Assembly (NCBI RefSeq): GCF_003201475.1
Contig: NZ_QJJK01000013.1
Location: 1 to 64,000 of the forward strand
Length of the DNA: 64,000 nt
Direction: 5' to 3'
Source of the DNA: Chelatococcus asaccharovorans
GTDB lineage: Bacteria > Pseudomonadota > Alphaproteobacteria > Rhizobiales > Beijerinckiaceae
Numbering within the stretch: position 1 is the stretch's first letter; each line of letters starts with the position of its first letter. Made by a program: the position numbers and the translations under genes. Shown here one piece after another: positions 25,848-58,064 of this stretch. The notes below the pieces were generated by a model. That model was not told where the DNA came from, did no database searches, and was given only the letters and a program-made list of their open reading frames with translations.

Positions 25848-27440
25848 ATGCTGAATACGGTCAGGTCGCAACGCGGAATGGTCACGGCGCCGCATCATCT
25901 TGCCAGCGAGGCAGGGTTGCGTGTCCTGCGCGACGGCGGGAACGCGATCGAGGCAGCAATTGCCATGGCAGCCACCCTCGCCGTCGTCTATCCGCATATG
26001 ACGGGGATCGGCGGGGACGGCTTCTGGATCATCGCCCCTCCCGGTGGTGATCCCATCGCGATCGATGCGTGCGGCCGCGCAGCCCGTGCCGCCACGCCCG
26101 ATCTGTATAATGATGCGGGACTGTCGCTCGTCCCGACGCGCGGTCCTCTTGCCGCCAATACGGTCGCGGGGACCGTGTCTGGCTGGCGTGAGGCGCAGCA
26201 GTTGAGCACGACGCTCGGCGGCGGTCTGCCGCTTGGGCGCATCCTGGAAGATGCGATCTGGTACGCCGAGAACGGCTTCCCGGTGTCGGCAAGCCAGGCC
26301 GAACTCACGCAGGCCAAGCTTGCTGAGCTCCGCAACGCTCCGGGATTCGCCGCGACCTTTCTCCCGGACGGGCGGCTGCCAACGACCGGCGAATTCATGC
26401 GCCTGCCCGCCTTGGCCGCAACCCTTCGCCGCCTGGCGGCGGCAGGCTTCGATGACCTCTATCGCGGTGAACTCGGCCGCCGGCTTGCATCCGACCTTGC
26501 CGCCATCGGGGCGCCGCTGACACAGCTCGACCTCGCGGACCATCACGCCATAACGGCCTCGCCGTTGGCCACGACGCTGCGCGGAGGCATTCGGCTGGTG
26601 AATTGTCCGCCGCCCACGCAGGGGGTGGCGTCGCTCATGATCCTGGCGATCTTCGATCGTTTGCAGGTAACGGCGGATGCCGAGACCTTCGGTCACGTGC
26701 ACGGCCTGGTGGAGGCGACCAAGCGGGCGTTCGTCCTCCGCGACAGGCTTGTCGGAGATCCCGCCAGCATGGCGGAGACGGCACAGGATCAGTTGCAGCC
26801 GGAGCGGCTCGACAGCCTCGCCGCCGCCATCGATATGCGCCAAGCGATGCCTTGGCCGGCAGAGCCCTCCGGCGGAGATACGGTCTGGCTTGGCGCCATC
26901 GACGCAAACGGCGTCGCCGTGAGCTTCATCCAAAGCATTTTCTTTGAGTTCGGATCGGGATGCGTGCTGCCGGAAACAGGTGTGCTCTGGCAGAACCGAG
27001 GCTCTAGCTTCTCGTTGTCGGATGGCATTCGCCAACTCGGCCCGGGCCGAAAGCCGTTTCACACGCTCAATCCGGCAGCCGCCTCTTTTCCGGACGGTCG
27101 GGTCATGGTTTACGGAACCATGGGGGGAGAGGGGCAACCGCAGACGCAGGCCGCCATCTTCACGCGCTACGGGATCTATGGCCAGGATCTCCAGTCGGCA
27201 ATCACAGCGCCGCGCTGGCTCCTCGGCAAGACCTGGGGCGAAGACAGCGTCACGCTCAAAGTCGAGAACCGGTTCTCGGACAGTCTGATCGCAGACTTGC
27301 GCGGCGCCGGCCATGACGTTGCATTGGTCGACGCCTTCACGAGCACGATGGGGCACGCCGGTGCGATCGTCCGCCATGCCAACGGCCTGCTCGAGGGTGC
27401 AAGTGATCCGCGCAGCGACGGCGCAGCCATAGGCTATTAG
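25848..27440 (+). CDS. Gamma-glutamyltransferase-family Ntn hydrolase, oxamate hydrolase (HpxW)-like
   Basis: A 530-residue GGT-superfamily proenzyme without a signal peptide, so cytoplasmic. The autocleavage/nucleophile Thr is probably Thr345 in SGGDTVWLGAID; classic GGTs have TTH there, and the downstream VAVSFIQSIFFEFGSG matches the FGSG/N-terminal beta-chain region. The D-T-V-W-x-G form and lack of export resemble HpxW, the oxamate amidohydrolase of the allantoin pathway, more than periplasmic GGT; this is from memory. It would self-cleave into two chains and hydrolyse an amide bond. AGGTGA precedes ATG 25848. Substrate is uncertain. Confidence 0.8.
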   Translation: MLNTVRSQRGMVTAPHHLASEAGLRVLRDGGNAIEAAIAMAATLAVVYPHMTGIGGDGFWIIAPPGGDPIAIDACGRAARAATPDLYNDAGLSLVPTRGPLAANTVAGTVSGWREAQQLSTTLGGGLPLGRILEDAIWYAENGFPVSASQAELTQAKLAELRNAPGFAATFLPDGRLPTTGEFMRLPALAATLRRLAAAGFDDLYRGELGRRLASDLAAIGAPLTQLDLADHHAITASPLATTLRGGIRLVNCPPPTQGVASLMILAIFDRLQVTADAETFGHVHGLVEATKRAFVLRDRLVGDPASMAETAQDQLQPERLDSLAAAIDMRQAMPWPAEPSGGDTVWLGAIDANGVAVSFIQSIFFEFGSGCVLPETGVLWQNRGSSFSLSDGIRQLGPGRKPFHTLNPAAASFPDGRVMVYGTMGGEGQPQTQAAIFTRYGIYGQDLQSAITAPRWLLGKTWGEDSVTLKVENRFSDSLIADLRGAGHDVALVDAFTSTMGHAGAIVRHANGLLEGASDPRSDGAAIGY

Positions 27441-27499
27441 CGCATCTTCGGGCGAAATGGACACCGCTTCGCGTGAAGACAATGCTTGGAAATAAGGAC

Positions 27500-27543
27500 C
27501 TGGAGCCTATCCGGTGAACTGGAGTTCACTGGATAGGCTCCAG
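27500..27543. repeat. Near-perfect 21-bp hairpin
   Basis: The left arm CTGGAGCCTATCCGGTGAACT and the right arm AGTTCACTGGATAGGCTCCAG (one mismatch) are separated by GG, forming a very strong stem 59 bases after the GGT-like stop. No T-run follows on either strand, so it may be a repeat-derived element that also blocks transcription. The arms contain CTGGAGC/GCTCCAG, reminiscent of the inverted repeat at 28541-28619. Confidence 0.7.
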
Positions 27544-27689
27544 CCATCGACCGGATCGCGGTGCTCCTGCCGAACCCGGCGGAATAATCCATCCCGGGTC
27601 TTTGCTTCGCCCCCGCGGCAGGCTACTTCAGCACCGACATGGCGGAAACTCCAACCGCTTCCAACACATCGCTCTCGTGGATCACCCGC

Positions 27690-28544
27690 ATGTATGGAAT
27701 ACCGTTGAACGACCTCGCCTGGTTGGTGGTCTCGCTGCTGTGCGCGGGCGCTGTCACGGGTCTCCTTGCCGGCGTATTCGGCGTCGGCGGCGGCGCGGTG
27801 GCAGTGCCCGTCCTCTACGAGCTTTTCCGTGTGACGGGCGTGCCGGAGGAGGTGCGCATGCCGCTCTGTATCGGCACCTCGCTGGCCATCATTATCCCGA
27901 CGTCCATCCGCTCCTTCAACGCGCATAGGGCGCGCGGCGCCGTCGACATGACGATCCTGCGGCAATGGGCCATACCCGTCGTCGTCGGTGTCTGCATGGG
28001 CAGTCTCGTGGCGCGTTATGCGCCGGAGGCCCTCTTCAAATCGGTCTTCGTCGTGGTCGCCGGTGTCTCTGCCGTCCGCCTGCTGTTCGGCAAGGACTCG
28101 TGGAATCTCGGCCTCGAGATGCCGCGCAAGGCCGTCATGACGGTCTATGGCTGGCTCATCGGCGTGCTGTCGAGCCTCATGGGCATCGGCGGGGGACAGT
28201 TGTCCAATCTCTTCATGACGTTCTACGGCCGGCCGATCCACCAGGCCGTGGCGACGTCATCGGGTCTGGGCGTCCTCATCTCGATACCGGGCACGCTCGG
28301 CTATATCTACGCCGGCTGGCCGCGCGCTGCGGAATTCCCGCAGGTCGCCGCGCTCCAGCCACCACTGGCCCTCGGCTATGTGTCGCTCGTCGGCCTCATC
28401 CTGTTCATTCCGACCAGCGTGCTCACCGCACCGCTCGGCGTCAGACTTGCCCACGCCATGCCCAAACGCCGGCTGGAGATCGCTTTCGGCCTTTTCCTGC
28501 TATTGGTGAGCGCCCGCTTTCTCATGAGCCTCCTCCCCCTCTAG
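27690..28544 (+). CDS. TauE/SafE family sulfite/organosulfonate exporter-like permease
   Basis: A 284-residue membrane protein with eight predicted segments and the internal duplication typical of TauE/SafE: GLLAGVFGVGGGAVAVPVL (about 21-39) and GVLSSLMGIGGGQLSNLFM (about 155-173). These G(V/I)GGG motifs are diagnostic. Family members export sulfite or sulfonates or act as general small-anion permeases. The start is uncertain: ATG 27690 matches the usual N-terminus, while ATG 27639 would add 17 residues; neither has a good Shine-Dalgarno. It is separated from the GGT-like gene by a strong hairpin. Confidence 0.85.
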   Translation: MYGIPLNDLAWLVVSLLCAGAVTGLLAGVFGVGGGAVAVPVLYELFRVTGVPEEVRMPLCIGTSLAIIIPTSIRSFNAHRARGAVDMTILRQWAIPVVVGVCMGSLVARYAPEALFKSVFVVVAGVSAVRLLFGKDSWNLGLEMPRKAVMTVYGWLIGVLSSLMGIGGGQLSNLFMTFYGRPIHQAVATSSGLGVLISIPGTLGYIYAGWPRAAEFPQVAALQPPLALGYVSLVGLILFIPTSVLTAPLGVRLAHAMPKRRLEIAFGLFLLLVSARFLMSLLPL

Positions 28545-47689: not shown

Positions 47690-48742
47690 TTGACCCATTC
47701 CTCCCCATACGAAGGCCTCGCCGTTCCGTTTCCGGTGCCACCCGCCCCGGGGGAAATGATCGAGATCGCACCGGGCGTCTTGTGGCTGCGCCTGCCGCTG
47801 CCCTTTCGCCTGAACCACGTCAATATTTACCTGATCCACGATGGAGACGGGTGGGCGGTCATCGACGCCGGCATTGCAGACGCTGTCTCGCGCCAAGCCT
47901 GGGAAGCCTTGATGGCCGGGCCGCTCGCCGGGCAAAAACTGACCCGGCTCTTCGTCACGCATTTCCATCCCGACCATATCGGTCTGGCCGGCTGGCTGGT
48001 GGAGCGTTTCGACATACCGCTGCTGTGCAGCCAGACGACCTATCTCATGGCGCGCAACATCGCGCTCGATCCGCTTTCGCTCGATGCGCAATTCTACCGC
48101 GACTTCTATCTGCGCCATGGGATGGATCGCGATGTGGTCGATCTGGTCGTGACACAAGGTCATTCCTATCTCAGGATGGTCGAAAGCCTGCCGCCGGCCT
48201 TCCGTCGCCATGTCGCGGGAGATGTCCTGCACATCGGGAGCCGCATGTTCGAGGTGCTCGGCGGCGAAGGTCATGCCCCCGAGCAGCTGATGCTGTACTG
48301 CCGCGACGAGCGTCTCCTGCTGGCGGCCGACCAGGTCATCGCGCGGATCACACCGAATGTCAGCGTGTCCGCGCTCGATCCGGACGGAGATCCATTAGGT
48401 CTCTATATCAGGACGTTGCGCACACTCGGCGCGGATATCCATCCGGAAACGCTCGTGCTGCCGGGCCATGAGCTGCCCTTCGTCGGGCTCGGGACGCGTG
48501 GCGAGCAAATCGTGGACCATCACGCCGAGCGATGCGCGCTCATTGCAGCCGCCTGCGCGATCAAACCCTGTTCGGTGGCCGATCTCGTTCCGGTCCTGTT
48601 CACGCGTCCGCTCGATCCTCACCAGTGGAGCTTCGCGTTCAGCGAGGCCCATGCCCATGTCAATTACATGATCCATCGCGGAGACCTGGCCTGCGTCGTC
48701 GACGCCGGCACGGTCCGGTTTACCTCAACGTCCGTTCGGTAG
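47690..48742 (+). CDS. Metallo-beta-lactamase-fold hydrolase
   Basis: A 350-residue MBL-fold protein. The metal motif THFHPDH gives His91, His93, Asp95 and His96, a further His lies in GEGHAPEQ, Asp in LLAADQ and the last His in VLPGHELPF. All binuclear zinc ligands are present. The C-terminal 90 residues form a helical winged-helix-like domain (VADLVPVLFTRPLDPHQW), as in LACTB2/glyoxalase II-like proteins with a C-terminal HTH. The TTG start at 47690 is chosen because the family usually has about 20 residues before EIAPGVLWLR; the Shine-Dalgarno is weak. Probable thioester or phosphodiester hydrolase. Confidence 0.85.
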   Translation: MTHSSPYEGLAVPFPVPPAPGEMIEIAPGVLWLRLPLPFRLNHVNIYLIHDGDGWAVIDAGIADAVSRQAWEALMAGPLAGQKLTRLFVTHFHPDHIGLAGWLVERFDIPLLCSQTTYLMARNIALDPLSLDAQFYRDFYLRHGMDRDVVDLVVTQGHSYLRMVESLPPAFRRHVAGDVLHIGSRMFEVLGGEGHAPEQLMLYCRDERLLLAADQVIARITPNVSVSALDPDGDPLGLYIRTLRTLGADIHPETLVLPGHELPFVGLGTRGEQIVDHHAERCALIAAACAIKPCSVADLVPVLFTRPLDPHQWSFAFSEAHAHVNYMIHRGDLACVVDAGTVRFTSTSVR

Positions 48743-49100: not shown

Positions 49101-49523
49101 ATGTCGTCATCCGCAATCCTGCAATTCGACGCGCCCAGCGTCGGCCTGTCCTTCCGGGCCAGACTTCTTGCCGAAGAGAACCCCGATGTCGTCGCGCAGG
49201 TGCTGGCCCAGTTGCCCTTGAAGAGCGTGCTCGGCCATGTCGTCGTCTCCGGCGAAGCGATCTGGATGCCGACACGCATCGTCCATCTCGGCCGCAACAA
49301 CATGGTCCAGCGCCATCCCGGCGCGGTCTACCTCTATGCGCCCGGCCAGTCGATCTGCCTGACCTACGGCAAGATCACCGAAAGCGCCAACGTCAACAAA
49401 TTTGCCGAAGTATTCGGCGAGGACCTGCCGAAACTCCATGAGCTCGGCACGCAGGTGTATGAGCAGACCGTGGCCCAGCCGCGTCGCAACATCGTCGAGA
49501 TCAATGTCCGGAGGGCCGCATAA
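49101..49523 (+). CDS. Cyclophilin-like fold protein (DUF3830-like)
   Basis: A 140-residue protein with the beta-rich pattern of the DUF3830/cyclophilin-like group: VGLSFRARLLAEENPDVVAQVLAQLP at the start, GHVVVSGEAIWMP in the middle (residues about 50-62), then GAVYLYAPGQSICLTYG. No peptidyl-prolyl isomerase function is implied. AGGAGG precedes ATG 49101. The final adenine is shared with the next ATG, so the two are tightly coupled. The pair resembles the two halves of cucumopine synthase (cyclophilin-like plus helical bundle), an enzyme that makes an opine from histidine and 2-oxoglutarate. That comparison is from memory and is the main hypothesis for this locus. Confidence 0.65.
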   Translation: MSSSAILQFDAPSVGLSFRARLLAEENPDVVAQVLAQLPLKSVLGHVVVSGEAIWMPTRIVHLGRNNMVQRHPGAVYLYAPGQSICLTYGKITESANVNKFAEVFGEDLPKLHELGTQVYEQTVAQPRRNIVEINVRRAA

Positions 49524-50068
49524 TGTCCGCGATCACGAGGTTCACCGGAGACTGGCGGGAGGCCAAGGCCATCATCGAGAAGGAGATCGACCGCGTCTGG
49601 TTCGATGAGCCCGAGGAGATCCAGAAGATCCGCTGGGGCGTGATCGACAGCGGGGCAGGAAGCGGCGAGCAGTCCTTCTCGGTTCTGGTCCATCTCGAAG
49701 CCTATATGATGCTCGTCGGCGCCGATGTGATGTACCGCTTCCTGAAGATCTCGCAATATGAGGATATGGAGCTCGCGACGCTGAACCGCATGACCCGCGA
49801 ATTCCTGACCGGTACCTTCAACGTATTCGAGTTCATGACCGATCTCGGCCTCACGAATATGCATCAGGTCGGACAGATGTATTCGGACGCACTGGATAGG
49901 CTGACGACAAAGGATGACTATGTCGAGCTGACCGGCGCGATGATGACATACGTTGTCCGCATGCATCGCTGGATCCATTTCATCTTTCCGTGGAACCTCG
50001 GCGTCGCCTTTCCGCACCGCAAACCGGCTGAAATCCAGGCGTTCTCCAAGGTCGTCGCGGCGGCCTGA
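49523..50068 (+). CDS. Helical-bundle protein (cucumopine synthase C-domain-like?), unknown function
   Basis: A 181-residue, almost all-helical protein with no named motif. It begins with an amphipathic helix (WREAKAIIEKEIDRVWFDEPEEIQ), then FSVLVHLEAYMMLVGADVMYRFL, YEDMELATLNRMTREFL and MMTYVVRMHRWIHFIFPW, rich in Met, Tyr, His and Trp that could line a pocket. The ATG overlaps the stop of the cyclophilin-like gene by one base. Its partnership with that gene suggests a heteromeric enzyme; a helical bundle following a cyclophilin-like domain is the architecture I recall for cucumopine synthase. A terminator follows. Confidence 0.55.
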   Translation: MSAITRFTGDWREAKAIIEKEIDRVWFDEPEEIQKIRWGVIDSGAGSGEQSFSVLVHLEAYMMLVGADVMYRFLKISQYEDMELATLNRMTREFLTGTFNVFEFMTDLGLTNMHQVGQMYSDALDRLTTKDDYVELTGAMMTYVVRMHRWIHFIFPWNLGVAFPHRKPAEIQAFSKVVAAA

Positions 50069-50094
50069 GACAACGCGCTGCCCTCACCTTCGCA

Positions 50095-50127
50095 GGCCAG
50101 GGTCCGGCATCGCCGGCTCTGGCCTTT
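50095..50127 (+). terminator. Probable intrinsic terminator
   Basis: GGCCAGGGTCCGGC and GCCGGCTCTGGCC pair almost completely around a three-base loop, followed by TTT. It lies 27 bases after the helical-bundle gene and before rpiR, so the enzyme pair and the regulator are probably separate transcripts. Confidence 0.7.
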
Positions 50128-50194
50128 CCCATGCGCAAAAATTTATGCGCGCACCCGTTGCCTGAATATAATAATACAGACTTGAGATTGGCCA

Positions 50195-51118
50195 GTGCGC
50201 ATCGGGGTGACAGACGTGGCGGCGAGCAAGACAACAGAAGACGGCGCGGCCTTGGGCGCCAACGCCCAGCCGGCGGATCGACAGTCTTTGCGGGCGGAGC
50301 TTGATCGGCGCACGGCCGGCCAAAGGCTGACGCCCGGCCAGCGCCGCATCGCCCAGTGCATGATCGAGAACAGCGCCCAGCTCGGTTTTCTCTCAAGCAT
50401 GGAACTGGCTGAACTGGCCGATGTCAGCCAACCGTCGGTGACGCGCTTCGCTGTTGCGCTCGGCTTCGACGGCTATCTGGAAATGCGGCGTTTCCTGCGC
50501 GCCAATCATTCCGGAGAAGGTACCGCCCCGGAGCCGTGCGAAGCCAACCGCTACCAGACGGCCGTGCTGGCCGAGGCCAGCAATCTGACCGAACTCGCAC
50601 AATCCCTGGCCGACACTGGCCTCATTGAGCGTTTCGGCGAGGCTCTGGCGAAATCAAAGCCGCTCGCCGTGCTCGGCCTGCGCGCTTCGGCGGGCCTTGC
50701 CACCCAGTTCGCCTATTTCGCCGCGAAGGTGCATCCAGATGTCAGGCTGCTCGCCGGCGGCGGATCCTTCGTCGAGGACCAGGTCGAGCAATGCGCCGCG
50801 GCCGGTGGGCGAACCATGCTCGTCTTCATGATGCCGCTCCATCCGCGCGAGACGATCCGCGCGATCGAATGCGCGCGCCACGCCGGCATGCGCATCGCGC
50901 TCGTCACGGACGCGAGCTTCAACAACCACGATGGCCTCGCCGACATCCTGCTCACATCGCGGGTCAGCAACCGCCTGCTGTTCGATTCCTACGCCGGCTC
51001 GGCGATACTCGTCTCCGTACTGCTCGATGCCCTTTGCACCAGCATGAAGGGCGATGCCCAGAAGCGGCTCGACGCGGTCGATCGTTCCTCGAAACGGCGC
51101 AAGGTCTTCATGAGTTGA
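50195..51118 (+). CDS. RpiR/MurR family transcriptional regulator
   Basis: A 307-residue regulator with an N-terminal HTH_6 domain (about 40-110, including FLSSMELAELADVSQPSVTRFAVALGFDGYLEMRRFL) and a SIS phosphosugar-like domain (about 135-275). Classical RpiR proteins sense sugar phosphates; others control amino acid or opine-like catabolism. GTG 50195 is the most likely start. Its promoter contains TGAATATAATAATA (50163-50176), and a close variant, TGAATTTATAATAATA, lies on the minus strand at 54962-54977 upstream of the ABC binding protein. It is convergent with the importer operon. Confidence 0.88.
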   Translation: MRIGVTDVAASKTTEDGAALGANAQPADRQSLRAELDRRTAGQRLTPGQRRIAQCMIENSAQLGFLSSMELAELADVSQPSVTRFAVALGFDGYLEMRRFLRANHSGEGTAPEPCEANRYQTAVLAEASNLTELAQSLADTGLIERFGEALAKSKPLAVLGLRASAGLATQFAYFAAKVHPDVRLLAGGGSFVEDQVEQCAAAGGRTMLVFMMPLHPRETIRAIECARHAGMRIALVTDASFNNHDGLADILLTSRVSNRLLFDSYAGSAILVSVLLDALCTSMKGDAQKRLDAVDRSSKRRKVFMS

Positions 51119-51916
51119 TCAATCGCGCTTGCGCACGGCCCCTAATCCGACCGTCCTGTCGACGATGAGCAGCAGCACGATCGAGGCCACGATCAATATC
51201 GTCGACATCGCCGCAACGAACGGCTCGTATTCGTATTGCAGATAGGCGCGCAACTGCAGCGGCAGCGTCGTCCAGTTCTTGTTCGCAAGGAAGATCGATA
51301 CCGTATAGTTGTTCCAGGACAACACGAAAACGATGATCAGCGACGGAATGATGCTGGCCTTGAGCAGGGGCAGTGTGACGCGCCAGAGCGCCTGCCGGGG
51401 CGTCGCGCCGACAGTGAGGGCCGCTTCCTCGAGCCGCACGTCGAAGCCTTCCATTTGCGCCATCACATTGCGCAAAGGATAGGGCAGCGTGACCACCACA
51501 TGCGCCGCGAGCAGCGTCCAGATGGTGTTCACCAGCCCCATCATGAAGATGATCTGGAACAGGGCGAGCGCCACGATGACAGCGGGAATGAACAGGGGCG
51601 ACATCAGGAGCGATGAGACAAAGGCTCTCGCCGCGCCACGCTGACGCTGCAAGCCGATGGCGGCGAGAACGCCGAGGCCGGTGCTGAGAAGCGCGGTGGC
51701 GACTCCGAGGATGGTGCTGGCCCAGGCGGCCTGCAGGAAATCCGGTTTGTCGAGAATCGTCGCATACCATTTCAGCGTAAAGCCTTGCGGCGGAAAGACC
51801 ATCGCGACAGGATTGAAGGAGACGACAATCAGGATGGCCAGCGGCGCCAAGAGAAAGGCGAAGAACAGCGCGGCCCCCCCATACCAGAGACTGCTGCCGA
51901 GAAGCGTTTTCTGCAT
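51119..51916 (-). CDS. Spermidine/putrescine-type ABC importer permease (PotC-like)
   Basis: A 265-residue permease with six hydrophobic segments. The coupling loop FDVRLEEAALTVGATPRQALWRVTLPLL (in two parts, about 148-175) is a well-conserved EAA motif. It is the last gene of a four-gene importer operon and its stop abuts rpiR on the other strand with no gap. PotC-like permeases transport polyamines, but also opines and modified amino acids in Rhizobiaceae. Confidence 0.9.
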   Translation of the reverse strand: MQKTLLGSSLWYGGAALFFAFLLAPLAILIVVSFNPVAMVFPPQGFTLKWYATILDKPDFLQAAWASTILGVATALLSTGLGVLAAIGLQRQRGAARAFVSSLLMSPLFIPAVIVALALFQIIFMMGLVNTIWTLLAAHVVVTLPYPLRNVMAQMEGFDVRLEEAALTVGATPRQALWRVTLPLLKASIIPSLIIVFVLSWNNYTVSIFLANKNWTTLPLQLRAYLQYEYEPFVAAMSTILIVASIVLLLIVDRTVGLGAVRKRD

Positions 51917-51926
51917 GGCGCTCTCC

Positions 51927-52784
51927 TCAAGCGGCTTGAATGGCCGTCGCCGGACGGCCCGCGGATCGCACCGCCCATTGATAGACTCCCAGCATCACCA
52001 TGGTGACGATCAGGAGGATGACGCCGATGGTCGCGGCAAAGGGCAGATTGTTCGACACCGTCGCCGTCTCGTAGGCGGCTACGCTCATGAAGCGCACCCG
52101 GCCGCCGCCGAGCAGGATCGGCACGACGAAGGATTCCACGTTGATGCCGAAGGCCAGCACGCTGCCGGCGAGAATCCCCGGCACGCTGAGCGGCAAGGTC
52201 ACACGGCGGAAGGCGGCAAGCGGCGTGGCACCCACCGTCATCGCCGCCTGTTCGAGCTGACGCGGGATGGCCTGGAGGACACCGAATACCGACAGAACGA
52301 CGAACGGCACCGCCACCTGCACCATGCCGATGACGACGGCCGTCTCGTTGTAGAGGAGCGGCAGCGGACGCGCGGTGATACCGAGCCCGACCAGGATCTG
52401 GTTGACCGGACCGTTGCGGCCGAGAACCACCATCAGGCTCAGCGTGCGCACCACGAGGTTCACCCAGAGCGGCAGCATGACGAGCAGGATCATCCAGGTC
52501 TGCGTCGTCGGCGCGGCCCGTGCGATCACGAAGGCGCCGAGATAGCCGATCACCACCGAAAACACGGTCGCAATCGCCGCGAGCCGGATGGTGCGCAGAA
52601 GAAGATCGTTGACGTAATAACTGTCGGTGAGAAAGCGGACGTAGTTGCCCAGCGTGAAGGCGTGCTGCACCTCGCCGGTCGGCCCTGCGCCGAGAAAACT
52701 CAGAATGACCACCCAGATCAGTGGGACGACGAAAAAGGCGCCGAGAATGACGACCGCCGGAAGGACAAGGGCGGATGTCTTCAT
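51927..52784 (-). CDS. Spermidine/putrescine-type ABC importer permease (PotB-like)
   Basis: A 285-residue permease with six hydrophobic segments starting MKTSALVLPAVVILGAFF. The EAA loop is AIPRQLEQAAMTVGATPLAAFRRVTLPL (about 180-207). ATG 52784 overlaps the ATPase stop (ATGA); the longer open frame upstream is antisense-free but includes the ATPase end. Follows the ATPase directly and precedes the PotC-like gene by ten bases. Confidence 0.9.
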   Translation of the reverse strand: MKTSALVLPAVVILGAFFVVPLIWVVILSFLGAGPTGEVQHAFTLGNYVRFLTDSYYVNDLLLRTIRLAAIATVFSVVIGYLGAFVIARAAPTTQTWMILLVMLPLWVNLVVRTLSLMVVLGRNGPVNQILVGLGITARPLPLLYNETAVVIGMVQVAVPFVVLSVFGVLQAIPRQLEQAAMTVGATPLAAFRRVTLPLSVPGILAGSVLAFGINVESFVVPILLGGGRVRFMSVAAYETATVSNNLPFAATIGVILLIVTMVMLGVYQWAVRSAGRPATAIQAA

Positions 52785-53872
52785 GGCGCAGATGCCGCGT
52801 TTGGCAGCAGGCGGGCCTGGCAACGCAGGATCACCGTGTCGCCGGCCCGGAACTTCGGCGCGTCCGGGCGCCGCTTCACGCGCATCTGGCGGTTGCCGAG
52901 CGTAACGAGATAGTCGCTCGACTGGCCGAAGAACATCAGGCGGTCGACGACGCCGCGCGGGAGCTCAACGTCGCCATGCGGCTGGGGTGTATCGAGCGTG
53001 ACCCATTCCGGGCGCACGAAGGCCACGCCGTCCCGGCCCGCACGCTGCCCGGCGCCTTCGACCGGGATCACCATATCCTCAGCCAGGCGCATGCCCTGGG
53101 TCGCCCCGCGTTCCTCGACCCGTCCGCGGAAAAAGAACGCCTCGCCGACAAAACGCGCGACATATTCGGAAACGGGACGGTTGTAGATGGCGTCGGGCGT
53201 ATCGAGTTGCTCGATGACGCCCTTGTTCATCACGACAACACGATCAGACAGCGACAGCGCCTCTTCCTGATCATGCGTCACGAAGACTGTTGTCAGCCCC
53301 AGCGTCTGCTGCAGGGTCTTGAGCTCCACCTGCATATCCTGACGCAAATTCTTGTCGAGCGCACTGAGCGGTTCGTCCAGCAACAGCACCTCAGGCTTCA
53401 GCACGATGGCGCGTGCCAGCGCCACGCGCTGTTGCTGCCCGCCCGAAAGCTGGGAGGGCAGGCGATCGGCGAGCGCTTCGAGTTGAACCATGGCGAGTGC
53501 GTCGTTGACCCGCTTGCGCAGCTCGGCGGCCGGCGTGCGCCGCAACTCGAGCCCCATCGAGACATTGCGGAAGACGCTGAGATGGGGCCACAATGCGAAA
53601 TTCTGGAAGACGAAGCCGATCCGCCGTTTCCAGACCGGATCCCGCGTGACGTTGCGCCCGGCGAGGTGGATCTCTCCGCCGCTGGGCGCCTCGAGCCCGG
53701 CAATGATCCGCAGAAGCGTGCTCTTGCCACAGCCGCTCGGACCGAGAACGGAGAGAAATTCTCCTTCGCGTACGTCAAGATCGATGCTGTCGAGGGCGAC
53801 GAAGCTCCCCCAGCTCTTCGAGACGCGGTTGACGCTAATCTGCCCCATCGGCGACGGTTCCTTGCTACTCAT
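52781..53872 (-). CDS. Spermidine/putrescine-type ABC importer ATPase (PotA-like)
   Basis: A 363-residue ATPase with Walker A GPSGCGKST (about 44-52), Q-loop VFQNFALWPH, signature LSGGQQQR, Walker B LLLDEPLSALD, switch His in VTHDQEEA, and a C-terminal TOBE_2 regulatory domain (about 270-355, VAFVRPEWVTL and MFFGQSSDYLVTLG). All motifs are intact, so this importer is complete by itself, unlike the CUT1 system at 28.7-34.4 kb. It lies 45 bases downstream of the binding-protein gene. Confidence 0.93.
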   Translation of the reverse strand: MSSKEPSPMGQISVNRVSKSWGSFVALDSIDLDVREGEFLSVLGPSGCGKSTLLRIIAGLEAPSGGEIHLAGRNVTRDPVWKRRIGFVFQNFALWPHLSVFRNVSMGLELRRTPAAELRKRVNDALAMVQLEALADRLPSQLSGGQQQRVALARAIVLKPEVLLLDEPLSALDKNLRQDMQVELKTLQQTLGLTTVFVTHDQEEALSLSDRVVVMNKGVIEQLDTPDAIYNRPVSEYVARFVGEAFFFRGRVEERGATQGMRLAEDMVIPVEGAGQRAGRDGVAFVRPEWVTLDTPQPHGDVELPRGVVDRLMFFGQSSDYLVTLGNRQMRVKRRPDAPKFRAGDTVILRCQARLLPNAASAP

Positions 53873-53917
53873 CCAGACCCGGCACGGGCGCTTATGCCGG
53901 GCGCATCGATCCGGTCG

Positions 53918-54913
53918 TCAGCGCGCGACGACTTCCTTTTCCCAACGCTCTTTCCAGGCGTCCATCTTGGGAACGATCTTCTTCCAGTCGGCGATCAGAA
54001 GCGACCCGACCACCTCCTCCCCGTACGGAACCTTGACGCCCTTGAGATCGAGCCCGGCGCGCGCGGGTGTATAGCCGAGATCCGATGCGTAGGCCGTCTG
54101 GCTGTCCACGCTGAGAAGATGGTTGACGAATTTCTGCGCGAGCTCCGTATTCGGGCGCCCTTTGACGACATGCACCGTCGAGACGAGCCCGATGGCGCCT
54201 TCCTTGGGGACCGCGAAGCCAAGACTGACACCCTGCTTGTTGGCCCAGTCGACCCGCCCGCGCAGCCAACGCGCGATGACGACCTCATTATTGCGGAAGA
54301 GGTCGAGCAACTGCGGGTGTTGGCTGTAGAAGACGGTGATGTGCTTGCCGAGTTCGGCCATCTTCTTGAAGCCGGGATCAATATTGTCTTCGTTACCGCC
54401 ATTGAGCTTGGCCATCAGCACCAGAAGCTCGATATTCGCCGCATCAAAGCCCGCCGTACTCACCGCACCGTCGTATTTTGCGTCCCACAGATCGAGCCAG
54501 GATGACGGCGCGGGTGACACCTCCTTCGGATTATAGGCGATGCCATATTCTCCGAAATTCGTAATGACGCCATACTCTGAAAAGCGCGCCTTCGGATAAA
54601 GCTTATCGAGATTGGTGACAATATTAGGATCGAGCTTCTCGAATGCACCCTGCGCTTCGCCGCGGTATGCCCAGGCCATATCGGCGTGAACAACGTCAAT
54701 TTCCTTGGCCATCGCCTTCGCAAGACCATCGGCACCAGACGCGGGAACGAATGTCACCTTGACATCATTATCCTTTTCGAACCGGGCGATGTTCTTCTTC
54801 AAGGCGTCCGTATAGGCGCCGCCGAAGGCAGCGACCACGAGCTCTTTTGTTTGGGCCTGCGCGGACAGGGTCGTGGCCAGCGCAATGGCCATGGCTGCCA
54901 GAAACTTTCCCAT
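53918..54913 (-). CDS. Spermidine/putrescine-type ABC importer, periplasmic binding protein (PotD-like)
   Basis: A 331-residue binding protein with a signal peptide (cleavage after LSAQAQ, about residue 21). The mature N-terminus KELVVAAFGGAYTDALKKNIARFE and the SWLDLWDAKYDGAVS, NEVVIARWLRGR segments match the PotD/PotF group. Key acidic residues that hold polyamine ammonium groups are not evident, so a different ligand such as an opine or amino acid conjugate is possible. It heads the importer operon; its promoter shares a 12-base word with that of the cyclophilin-like gene. Confidence 0.88.
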   Translation of the reverse strand: MGKFLAAMAIALATTLSAQAQTKELVVAAFGGAYTDALKKNIARFEKDNDVKVTFVPASGADGLAKAMAKEIDVVHADMAWAYRGEAQGAFEKLDPNIVTNLDKLYPKARFSEYGVITNFGEYGIAYNPKEVSPAPSSWLDLWDAKYDGAVSTAGFDAANIELLVLMAKLNGGNEDNIDPGFKKMAELGKHITVFYSQHPQLLDLFRNNEVVIARWLRGRVDWANKQGVSLGFAVPKEGAIGLVSTVHVVKGRPNTELAQKFVNHLLSVDSQTAYASDLGYTPARAGLDLKGVKVPYGEEVVGSLLIADWKKIVPKMDAWKERWEKEVVAR

Positions 54914-57218: not shown

Positions 57219-58064
57219 ATGACACACGCGCCTTCAAACGAGAACGCAATGGTCCTGAACGCAGATCAGCTCGACACCTATCTCGCGCGGATCGGCGTCG
57301 AGCGGCCGGCTTCCCTCGACATCCACAGCCTGTCGCGGCTGCATCGTGCTCATCTCATGGCCTTCACCTGGGAGGCGCTGGACGCTTTCATGGGATGGCC
57401 GTCCGCGATCACCCCCGCGTCCGCCTTCACGAAGATGGTGGAAGGCAGGCGTGGCGGCTGGTGCTACGAAATGAACGGCCTTTTCGGTGCCGCGCTCGCC
57501 GCGCTCGGCTTCCGGGTGACTCGCCTGTGCGGCGGTGTCAACCGGGAGATCCTCGGCGACATCGCCATCGGCAACCACCTCACGCTGCGTGTCGATCTCG
57601 ATCGCCCGTATCTCGCCGAAGTCGGCGTGGCTGATGCCATCGTCGAGCCGGTCCCGATCGCCGTCGGGCCGATCCGGCAGCGCGGCTTCGACTTCTCGAT
57701 CACGCTGGCGGAGGGCGGCTGGCTGCGCCTGAACAATCATGAGAGAGGCATCGCCAAGAGCTTCGATTTCCGCCCCGACCACAGCGACGAAGCGACCATG
57801 GCGGCCACGCATGGCTGGCTGATGCAGGATCCTGGCTCGCCGTTCACGAATGCGCTCGCGGTCCTGCGGCATACGACGGACGGCTATGTCGCGCTGCAGA
57901 ATGATGCCCTGCGCCACGTGACGGCAACGGGCGTGAGCGAGCAGCGGATCACCAGTGCCGAGCATCTCGCCGAAACGCTTGAAACCGTTTTCGACCTCGA
58001 CATTCCCGAGCCCGCACGCGTCTGGGGCAGGATCCTGTCGATCGGCCGCGACAAGGCCGCCTGA
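57219..58064 (+). CDS. nat: Arylamine N-acetyltransferase-like protein
   Basis: A 281-residue NAT, transferring an acetyl group from acetyl-CoA to arylamines or hydrazines. The nucleophile is Cys82 in RGGWCYEMN, the His is His120 in GNHLTLRVDL. The third triad residue, normally Asp in LVDVGFG, aligns with Glu134 in YLAEVGVAD, an unusual substitution. The rest of the fold (RVTRLCGGVNR, FTNALAVLRHTTDGY) is normal and the length is typical. AAAGGAGA precedes the ATG. It is divergent from the two split-barrel genes, which may regulate it or process its product. Confidence 0.88.
   Translation: MTHAPSNENAMVLNADQLDTYLARIGVERPASLDIHSLSRLHRAHLMAFTWEALDAFMGWPSAITPASAFTKMVEGRRGGWCYEMNGLFGAALAALGFRVTRLCGGVNREILGDIAIGNHLTLRVDLDRPYLAEVGVADAIVEPVPIAVGPIRQRGFDFSITLAEGGWLRLNNHERGIAKSFDFRPDHSDEATMAATHGWLMQDPGSPFTNALAVLRHTTDGYVALQNDALRHVTATGVSEQRITSAEHLAETLETVFDLDIPEPARVWGRILSIGRDKAA

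Follow-up and report, generated by a model that had tools for sequence, protein, structure and literature searches.

A probable histidine-opine utilisation locus with a putative two-subunit Pictet-Spenglerase-type enzyme in Chelatococcus asaccharovorans

Introduction

Purified Mis, the mikimopine synthase encoded in the transferred DNA (T-DNA) of the root-inducing (Ri) plasmid pRi1724, forms mikimopine from histidine and alpha-ketoglutarate (PMC4127661), so its family handles these substrates. KslB, a Pictet-Spenglerase that will serve here as a structural reference, uses tryptophan and 2-oxoglutarate (PMC12513458 and the titles of its PDB entries). Two genes of the non-T-DNA part of pRi1724, riorf22 plus riorf23, have in addition been named as mis homologs (PMC4242671). 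Here we describe a locus of this family in Chelatococcus asaccharovorans, at positions 49101 to 54913 of a stretch of 64,000 nucleotides (contig NZ_QJJK01000013.1, positions 1 to 64,000 of the forward strand; the whole stretch is called the window below). It comprises two overlapping genes for the two domains of such an enzyme, an RpiR-type regulator and a convergent PotABCD-type ATP-binding cassette (ABC) importer. We consider it probable that this is a histidine-opine utilisation locus, in which an opine would be imported and then cleaved to histidine and 2-oxoglutarate by the gene pair acting as a two-subunit Pictet-Spenglerase-type enzyme.

Results

Two small proteins correspond to the two domains of Pictet-Spenglerases

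The pair consists of a barrel subunit of 140 residues (49101..49523, + strand) and a bundle subunit of 181 residues (49523..50068, + strand), the stop codon of the first and the start codon of the second overlapping by one base (TAATG). The initial annotation had compared them with the two-domain architecture of cucumopine synthase, split in two genes, and this comparison is borne out. The bundle is a member of the Pfam family Cucumopine_C (PF18631), which it matches with 94.5 bits against a curated cut-off of 27. The barrel gave only sub-threshold Pfam matches to three cyclophilin-like families, the best being DUF3830 (PF12903) with 24.7 bits for a cut-off of 26, and no NCBIfam model matched either subunit. 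In a phmmer search of PDB sequences both subunits retrieved the same proteins, namely KslB (9ns6 and 9k0a), 9uwa, 9uwb and McbB (3x27, labelled Cucumopine synthase); the barrel matched KslB 9ns6 with an E-value of 2.9e-6. AlphaFold2 models were then built for each subunit from 11 sequences, those of the window and of 10 of the 12 loci found by a search with the bundle (the damaged pairs of L027 and L028 were omitted). With Foldseek the barrel model matched KslB 9k0a (E 7.4e-9, template-modelling score 0.83) and McbB (4.6e-8), and the best matches of the bundle model were McbB (2.6e-4) and KslB (3.1e-4). As modelled, then, each subunit matches one domain of the Pictet-Spenglerases McbB and KslB rather than an unrelated fold, the barrel being related both to their barrel domain and to the N-terminal half of mikimopine synthase. 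We infer from these sequence and model matches that barrel and bundle would assemble into one two-subunit enzyme of the Pictet-Spenglerase type.

The active-site residues of McbB are Glu97, Arg72 and His87, a spacing that agrees with the 3x27 segment. Of the three, only Glu97 has a counterpart in the window barrel, namely Glu94; the positions aligned with Arg72 and His87 hold other residues. In an alignment of 45 of the 47 family systems described below and two PDB enzymes (L027 and L028 again omitted beforehand) the Glu94 column holds Glu in 44 of the 47 rows, the others being the truncated L057 and two systems, L013 and L014, that both lie below the Pfam cut-off. Three other DUF3830 proteins of the host genome, all stand-alone, have Gly, a gap and Asp at this position. 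Stand-alone DUF3830 genes without a bundle also adjoin further PotABCD-type importer genes in the host genome (L001/L041 and L003/L039), the Glu being missing there, and these sets are possibly another import-and-convert family. Finally, comparison of both window genes with those of six relatives indicates that the pair is under purifying selection, the ratio of nonsynonymous to synonymous divergence (dN/dS) being 0.04-0.15 in nine of the 12 comparisons; dS was saturated in three.

The locus is orthologous to a non-T-DNA region of the mikimopine plasmid

An orthologous pair lies on pRi1724 at 27055-28022, with 84% identity to the window proteins for the barrel and 84% for the bundle. Riorf22 and riorf23 are presumably this pair, judging from the wording of the paper and the position; the record used has other locus tags. 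The orthology extends to the RpiR-type regulator (307 residues, 50195..51118, + strand; 72% identity) and, on the - strand, to the PotC-like ABC permease (51119..51916; 84%), the PotB-like ABC permease (51927..52823; 80%), the PotA-like ABC ATPase with a TOBE domain (52781..53872; 72%) and the periplasmic binding protein of the PotD/PhnS-like class (53918..54913), which is 86% identical over residues 178-331, the part present in the compared stretch (L029). The T-DNA mis gene product is 53% identical to the window barrel and 39% to the bundle. Downstream of the pRi1724 pair, on the opposite strand, are an amino-acid-type ABC importer and oxoprolinase A/B; further on come GntR and RpiR genes on the strand of the pair and then the convergent PotABCD-type importer. 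Between mis and the pair, 0.63 kb from the latter, we found a T-DNA border-like site (L029 12926-12947, 2 mismatches), where 0.04 sites would be expected by chance at up to 3 mismatches. By sequence comparison the window locus is thus orthologous to this non-T-DNA region and represents a known kind of system. The initial annotation had proposed a new kind of metabolism; this is ruled out by the pRi1724 region, which already holds the same pair, regulator and importer at 72-86% identity. Its coupling of the pair to uptake and its suspicion of opine chemistry are supported.

The cucumopine plasmid pRi2659 carries, outside its T-DNA, an amino-acid-type importer, oxoprolinase A/B, hutC and hutH, and in the same region a fused barrel-first gene, a fused bundle-first gene, a PotABCD-type importer, hutI, hutG and hutU. 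Its T-DNA cus gene (L043 47236-48195) and the bundle-first gene of the opine region (L044 11998-12942) share 837 bp with 99.6% DNA identity, and the two proteins are 92% identical over 308 aligned residues, the differences lying at the ends. Such similarity indicates a recent duplication or gene conversion between a plant-expressed and a bacterial gene. The border-like site beside cus needs 3 mismatches.

The two subunits co-occur, split or fused, across the family

Barrel and bundle genes adjoin in all 12 loci found by the bundle search, two of which look damaged: L027 (Cupriavidus sp. UYMMa02A) and L028 (Paracoccus sp. MKU1) have an incomplete barrel or bundle, be this real or an assembly error. 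Overall, the 67 bundle matches in the fetched loci correspond to 47 distinct systems with a barrel. Together with the fold matches, this co-occurrence rules out a chance pairing of two unrelated small genes. Four of the 67 matches had no partner in their stretch and, by position, are probably ends of fused genes cut at locus edges and counted elsewhere. The systems are split in 33 cases (27 barrel-first, including L027 and L028, and 6 bundle-first) and fused in 14 (9 bundle-first and 5 barrel-first). Since 33 of the 47 are split, a single chain seems not to define the family that combines Cucumopine_C with a cyclophilin-like barrel. Domain order varies as well, mis being barrel-first and cus bundle-first, and both orders exist split and fused.

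A tree of 46 rows (44 systems and two PDB enzymes, with L027, L028 and L057 left out; midpoint root), in which mis, McbB and one further row form long branches, implies 3 changes of domain order and 3 of the split or fused state. In this tree mis forms one group (support 100/99) together with the window pair and 17 further split pairs of barrel-first order, and within it is placed outside those 18 split pairs (81/84). This grouping fits a fusion of a two-gene ancestor, read with the long mis branch and the midpoint-based root in mind.

The family is rare: genomes with a bundle match number 13 among the 397 sampled from the order, 4 among 385 from the class and 1 among 398 from the phylum, and each sample includes the host genome. 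Loci of the window type are nevertheless spread over hosts that include Phyllobacterium, Mangrovicella, Sinorhizobium, Sodalis, Paraburkholderia, Trinickia, Pseudomonas and Cupriavidus, most of which are not known as plant transformers.

Histidine ammonia-lyase and oxoprolinase genes are enriched near the pair

We compared the genes around 17 window-type loci (the window, L017-L028, pRi1724, pMl1, pHS1 and G056) with those of 20 other family stretches and 20 controls. Flanks of about 10 kb to the left and right of the pair were covered; they measured 8 kb in most bundle-search loci, less on short contigs (as for L021 and L022) and as much as 14.5 kb on one side in pRi1724. The 17 include the damaged pairs of L027 and L028. 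Controls were placed at chosen round coordinates in 7 genomes, all of the window's order, so that their hosts are not matched to all cases. A histidine ammonia-lyase (HAL) or hutH gene was present in 9/17 window-type loci, 7/20 other family stretches and 0/20 controls (one-sided Fisher test for the window type, 2e-4). Oxoprolinase A/B genes occurred in 10/17, 2/20 and 0/20, respectively, and RpiR genes in 14/17, 1/20 and 0/20; all three gene types clearly set the window-type loci apart from the controls. Separation was weak for a window-like binding protein (5/17, 6/20 and 0/20; p 0.014 for the window type) and for a PotABCD permease (6/17, 6/20 and 1/20; p 0.026), and there was none for hutU/I/G/F taken alone (3/17 window-type loci against 0/20 controls; p 0.09). 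A nearby ABC ATPase was dropped as proof, 9/20 controls also having one. The case loci were drawn by the pair itself, are mutually related and include an overlap of 5 kb between L037 and L038; the Fisher values therefore treat them as more independent than they are. Given this relatedness, and with every control belonging to the order of the window, we take the enrichment as support and not as a clean probability.

In Sinorhizobium medicae pMl1 (L031 6859-12579) the importer part is apparently interrupted, a recombinase gene following a short permease. Elsewhere in the pMl1 record a group II intron maturase lies alongside other importer genes.

The host genome carries several versions of the enzyme

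Including the window, there are seven Cucumopine_C matches in the host genome (contigs C2, C8, C12, C13 and C18), and at least four of these seven loci have ABC importer genes alongside. C18 carries a split pair together with PotABCD, HAL-like and amidohydrolase genes, and also a fused bundle-first gene next to an amino-acid-type importer. C2 has a pRi2659-like locus with two divergent fused genes, its binding protein being 77% and its HutC 80% identical to those of pRi2659. The fused gene of C12 has oxoprolinase A/B within the same 20 kb, and the split pair of C8 has no importer match nearby. A hutH is found on C7 (59% identity), and the HAL-like gene of C18 shows 45%. Hydantoinase_A/oxoprolinase matches number 19 in the host genome, which strikes us as many; none is around the window pair. 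No T-DNA border-like site was found in the host genome at up to 2 mismatches, a threshold that a weak border such as the pRi2659 cus site, with 3 mismatches, could escape. With its seven bundle genes the genome looks like that of an opine scavenger.

Importer, regulator and neighbouring genes of the window

Open reading frame positions together with Pfam and NCBIfam agree with the gene order of the initial annotation, that is, two overlapping genes, an RpiR-type regulator and a convergent importer with all four subunits of the PotABCD class. The nearest NCBIfam models are PotC, PotB and PotA for the permeases and the ATPase and PhnS and PotD for the binding protein, all below their cut-offs. 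The polyamine equivalog cut-offs in particular are missed (PotA 365/482, PotB 162/348, PotC 151/326 and PotD 45.5/582 bits), as is that of PotF by the binding protein (26.9 bits, cut-off 636). Solved structures related to this protein include those of the mannopine-binding protein 5l9s and MotA. The regulator has an HTH_6 and a weak SIS domain. Its start is uncertain, most relatives aligning only from residue 16-31 and those of L019 and pRi1724 from residue 1-5. The guanine-plus-cytosine content of the pair genes, 0.62 and 0.58 against 0.64 for the window, fits transfer and is no proof of it.

Directly upstream of the pair is a metallo-beta-lactamase-fold hydrolase gene (47690-48739), with no match listed in the other 16 window-type loci. 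An arylamine N-acetyltransferase gene (57219-58064) lies, with GAF-domain neighbours, in a stretch about 79% DNA-identical to a Roseateles plasmid.

Discussion

The initial annotation left open whether the pair makes or degrades its compound. The genomic context leans clearly towards degradation, through the importers, through the genes for histidine ammonia-lyase and for oxoprolinase, and through the nearly identical copy of cus in the opine region of pRi2659. In the reading that we favour, the importer would bring in mikimopine, or a closely related diastereomer or lactam, that a transformed or naturally transgenic plant has made. Barrel and bundle would then work in the cell in the degrading direction, the synthase reaction reversed. 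The conserved barrel Glu may help to protonate and reopen the tetrahydroimidazopyridine ring in a retro-Pictet-Spengler step, and hydrolysis of the resulting imine would give L-histidine and 2-oxoglutarate. The released histidine could enter the Hut route by way of the hutH on C7, a gene that adjoins the pair in many relatives, and RpiR would be the likely ligand-responsive regulator. A catabolic locus would account for the importer, the HAL neighbours, the oxoprolinases and the presence of synthase relatives outside T-DNA. A 1996 study by Kim, Chilton and Farrand reportedly relates a mannopine-degrading enzyme to its biosynthetic counterpart in the T-DNA, which would be a precedent. As for the oxoprolinases, opines derived from 2-oxoglutarate can cyclise to a pyroglutamate-like gamma-lactam. 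In the catabolic area of the succinamopine plasmid pTiEU6, oxoprolinase A/B occurs together with a putrescine-like ABC transporter, and both are discussed for lactam opines (PMC6733357).

Several observations weigh against this reading. No hut or oxoprolinase match lies near the pair in the window, 8 of the 17 window-type loci lack a HAL gene in the available stretch (among them the short L021 and L022 and the damaged L027 and L028), and there is no hutH in the 28.5 kb listed for pRi1724. Among the other family stretches, some HAL matches share no more than about 45-50% identity with each other or with hutH, and these might not be specific for histidine. L013 and L014, both split systems, are without the Glu, and the confidence of the models is moderate (predicted local distance difference test 69 for the barrel and 76 for the bundle). 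Lastly, Pictet-Spengler ring closure usually lies far towards the product, so that an enzyme running backward needs product removal.

The alternative that survives best, and which we regard as improbable though its odds overlap with those of opine cleavage, is that the locus imports and cleaves a different Pictet-Spengler adduct, with a different keto acid or amine as building block, such as a plant histidine alkaloid. The family does have several clades with differing neighbours, including sets of a HAL-like gene and an amidohydrolase, and the specificity of the binding protein is not revealed by its sequence. All seven genes, however, are 72-86% identical to the mikimopine-plasmid region, which is above what would be expected after a change of substrate. 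Somewhat less probable still is that the pair makes a histidine-2-oxoglutarate opine-like compound in a free-living cell, the importer recovering a store, signal or metallophore. The characterised enzymes nearest to it in fold and sequence (McbB, KslB, mis and cus) are indeed synthetic, and the presumed catalytic Glu is kept. In contrast, no exporter was found among the proteins scanned around the pair, the importer is orthologous to that of an opine plasmid, and pRi1724 has its synthase as a separate T-DNA gene; moreover, histidine-degrading genes lie beside the pair in relatives, and hutH is an unlikely partner for a maker. We give an equally low chance to a pair that modifies the opine without cleavage, by lactam opening or by inversion at C4, leaving cleavage to another enzyme: mikimopine and cucumopine do differ only at C4 (PMC9103826) and oxoprolinase genes in 10/17 loci could mean that opine use is multi-step, but the hut set and oxoprolinase A/B are not near the pair in the window and L018 (the latter annotated in part), and hutH adjoining the pair in relatives implies free histidine.

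Returning to cleavage of a histidine opine, a broader proposal can be framed, to which we give even chances. The pair would be a two-subunit retro-Pictet-Spenglerase that cleaves a C-C bond of histidine opines, and the plant-expressed synthases would be late copies of bacterial degrading enzymes. Mis would then have arisen by fusion of a two-gene ancestor into one chain, as required in plants, where operons are not read. Cus would be a duplicate, still nearly identical, of a catabolic gene that was already fused, and the two subunits would have been joined in one order in some lines and in the opposite order in others. Several versions would be retained by bacteria that lack T-DNA, such as this one, for scavenging a family of such adducts. 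In the literature searched we found no assay or naming of a histidine-opine-cleaving enzyme and no paper that mentions DUF3830; most subscription papers lay outside the search, and that on pAtAg67 (octopine-cucumopine) may describe such genes. The present comparison ties plant-expressed synthases to bacterial opine-use genes in loci that extend from Phyllobacterium and Sinorhizobium to Paraburkholderia, Pseudomonas, Sodalis and others. In size the window locus ranks with the smallest observed, comprising a pair, a regulator and an importer with no hut or oxoprolinase genes close by, so that the cleavage question can be addressed with two small proteins.

Comparison with known systems

The closest system is the non-T-DNA region of pRi1724, which like the window has a two-gene enzyme, RpiR and a convergent PotABCD-type importer. 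It differs by its amino-acid-type importer, its oxoprolinase A/B, the GntR gene between pair and RpiR and the adjacent T-DNA, none of which is present at the window. Mikimopine synthase itself, in the T-DNA of the same plasmid, has its two domains in the order of the window, but as one fused plant-expressed protein instead of two bacterial ones. Cucumopine synthase and the opine region of pRi2659 share with the window the two domains and a PotABCD-type importer, and there oxoprolinase and hut genes are the companions; the enzymes are fused, cus in the reverse, bundle-first order, whereas that of the window is split. McbB (3x27) and KslB (9ns6, 9k0a) have the fold of both subunits and a Glu at the presumed catalytic site. 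Unlike the window pair they are single-chain, biosynthetic and tryptophan-using, and they are not known to have an importer. Mannopine catabolism (mocC; MotA, 5l9s), whose chemistry differs from that of the window system, has binding proteins of the same class as the one encoded here.

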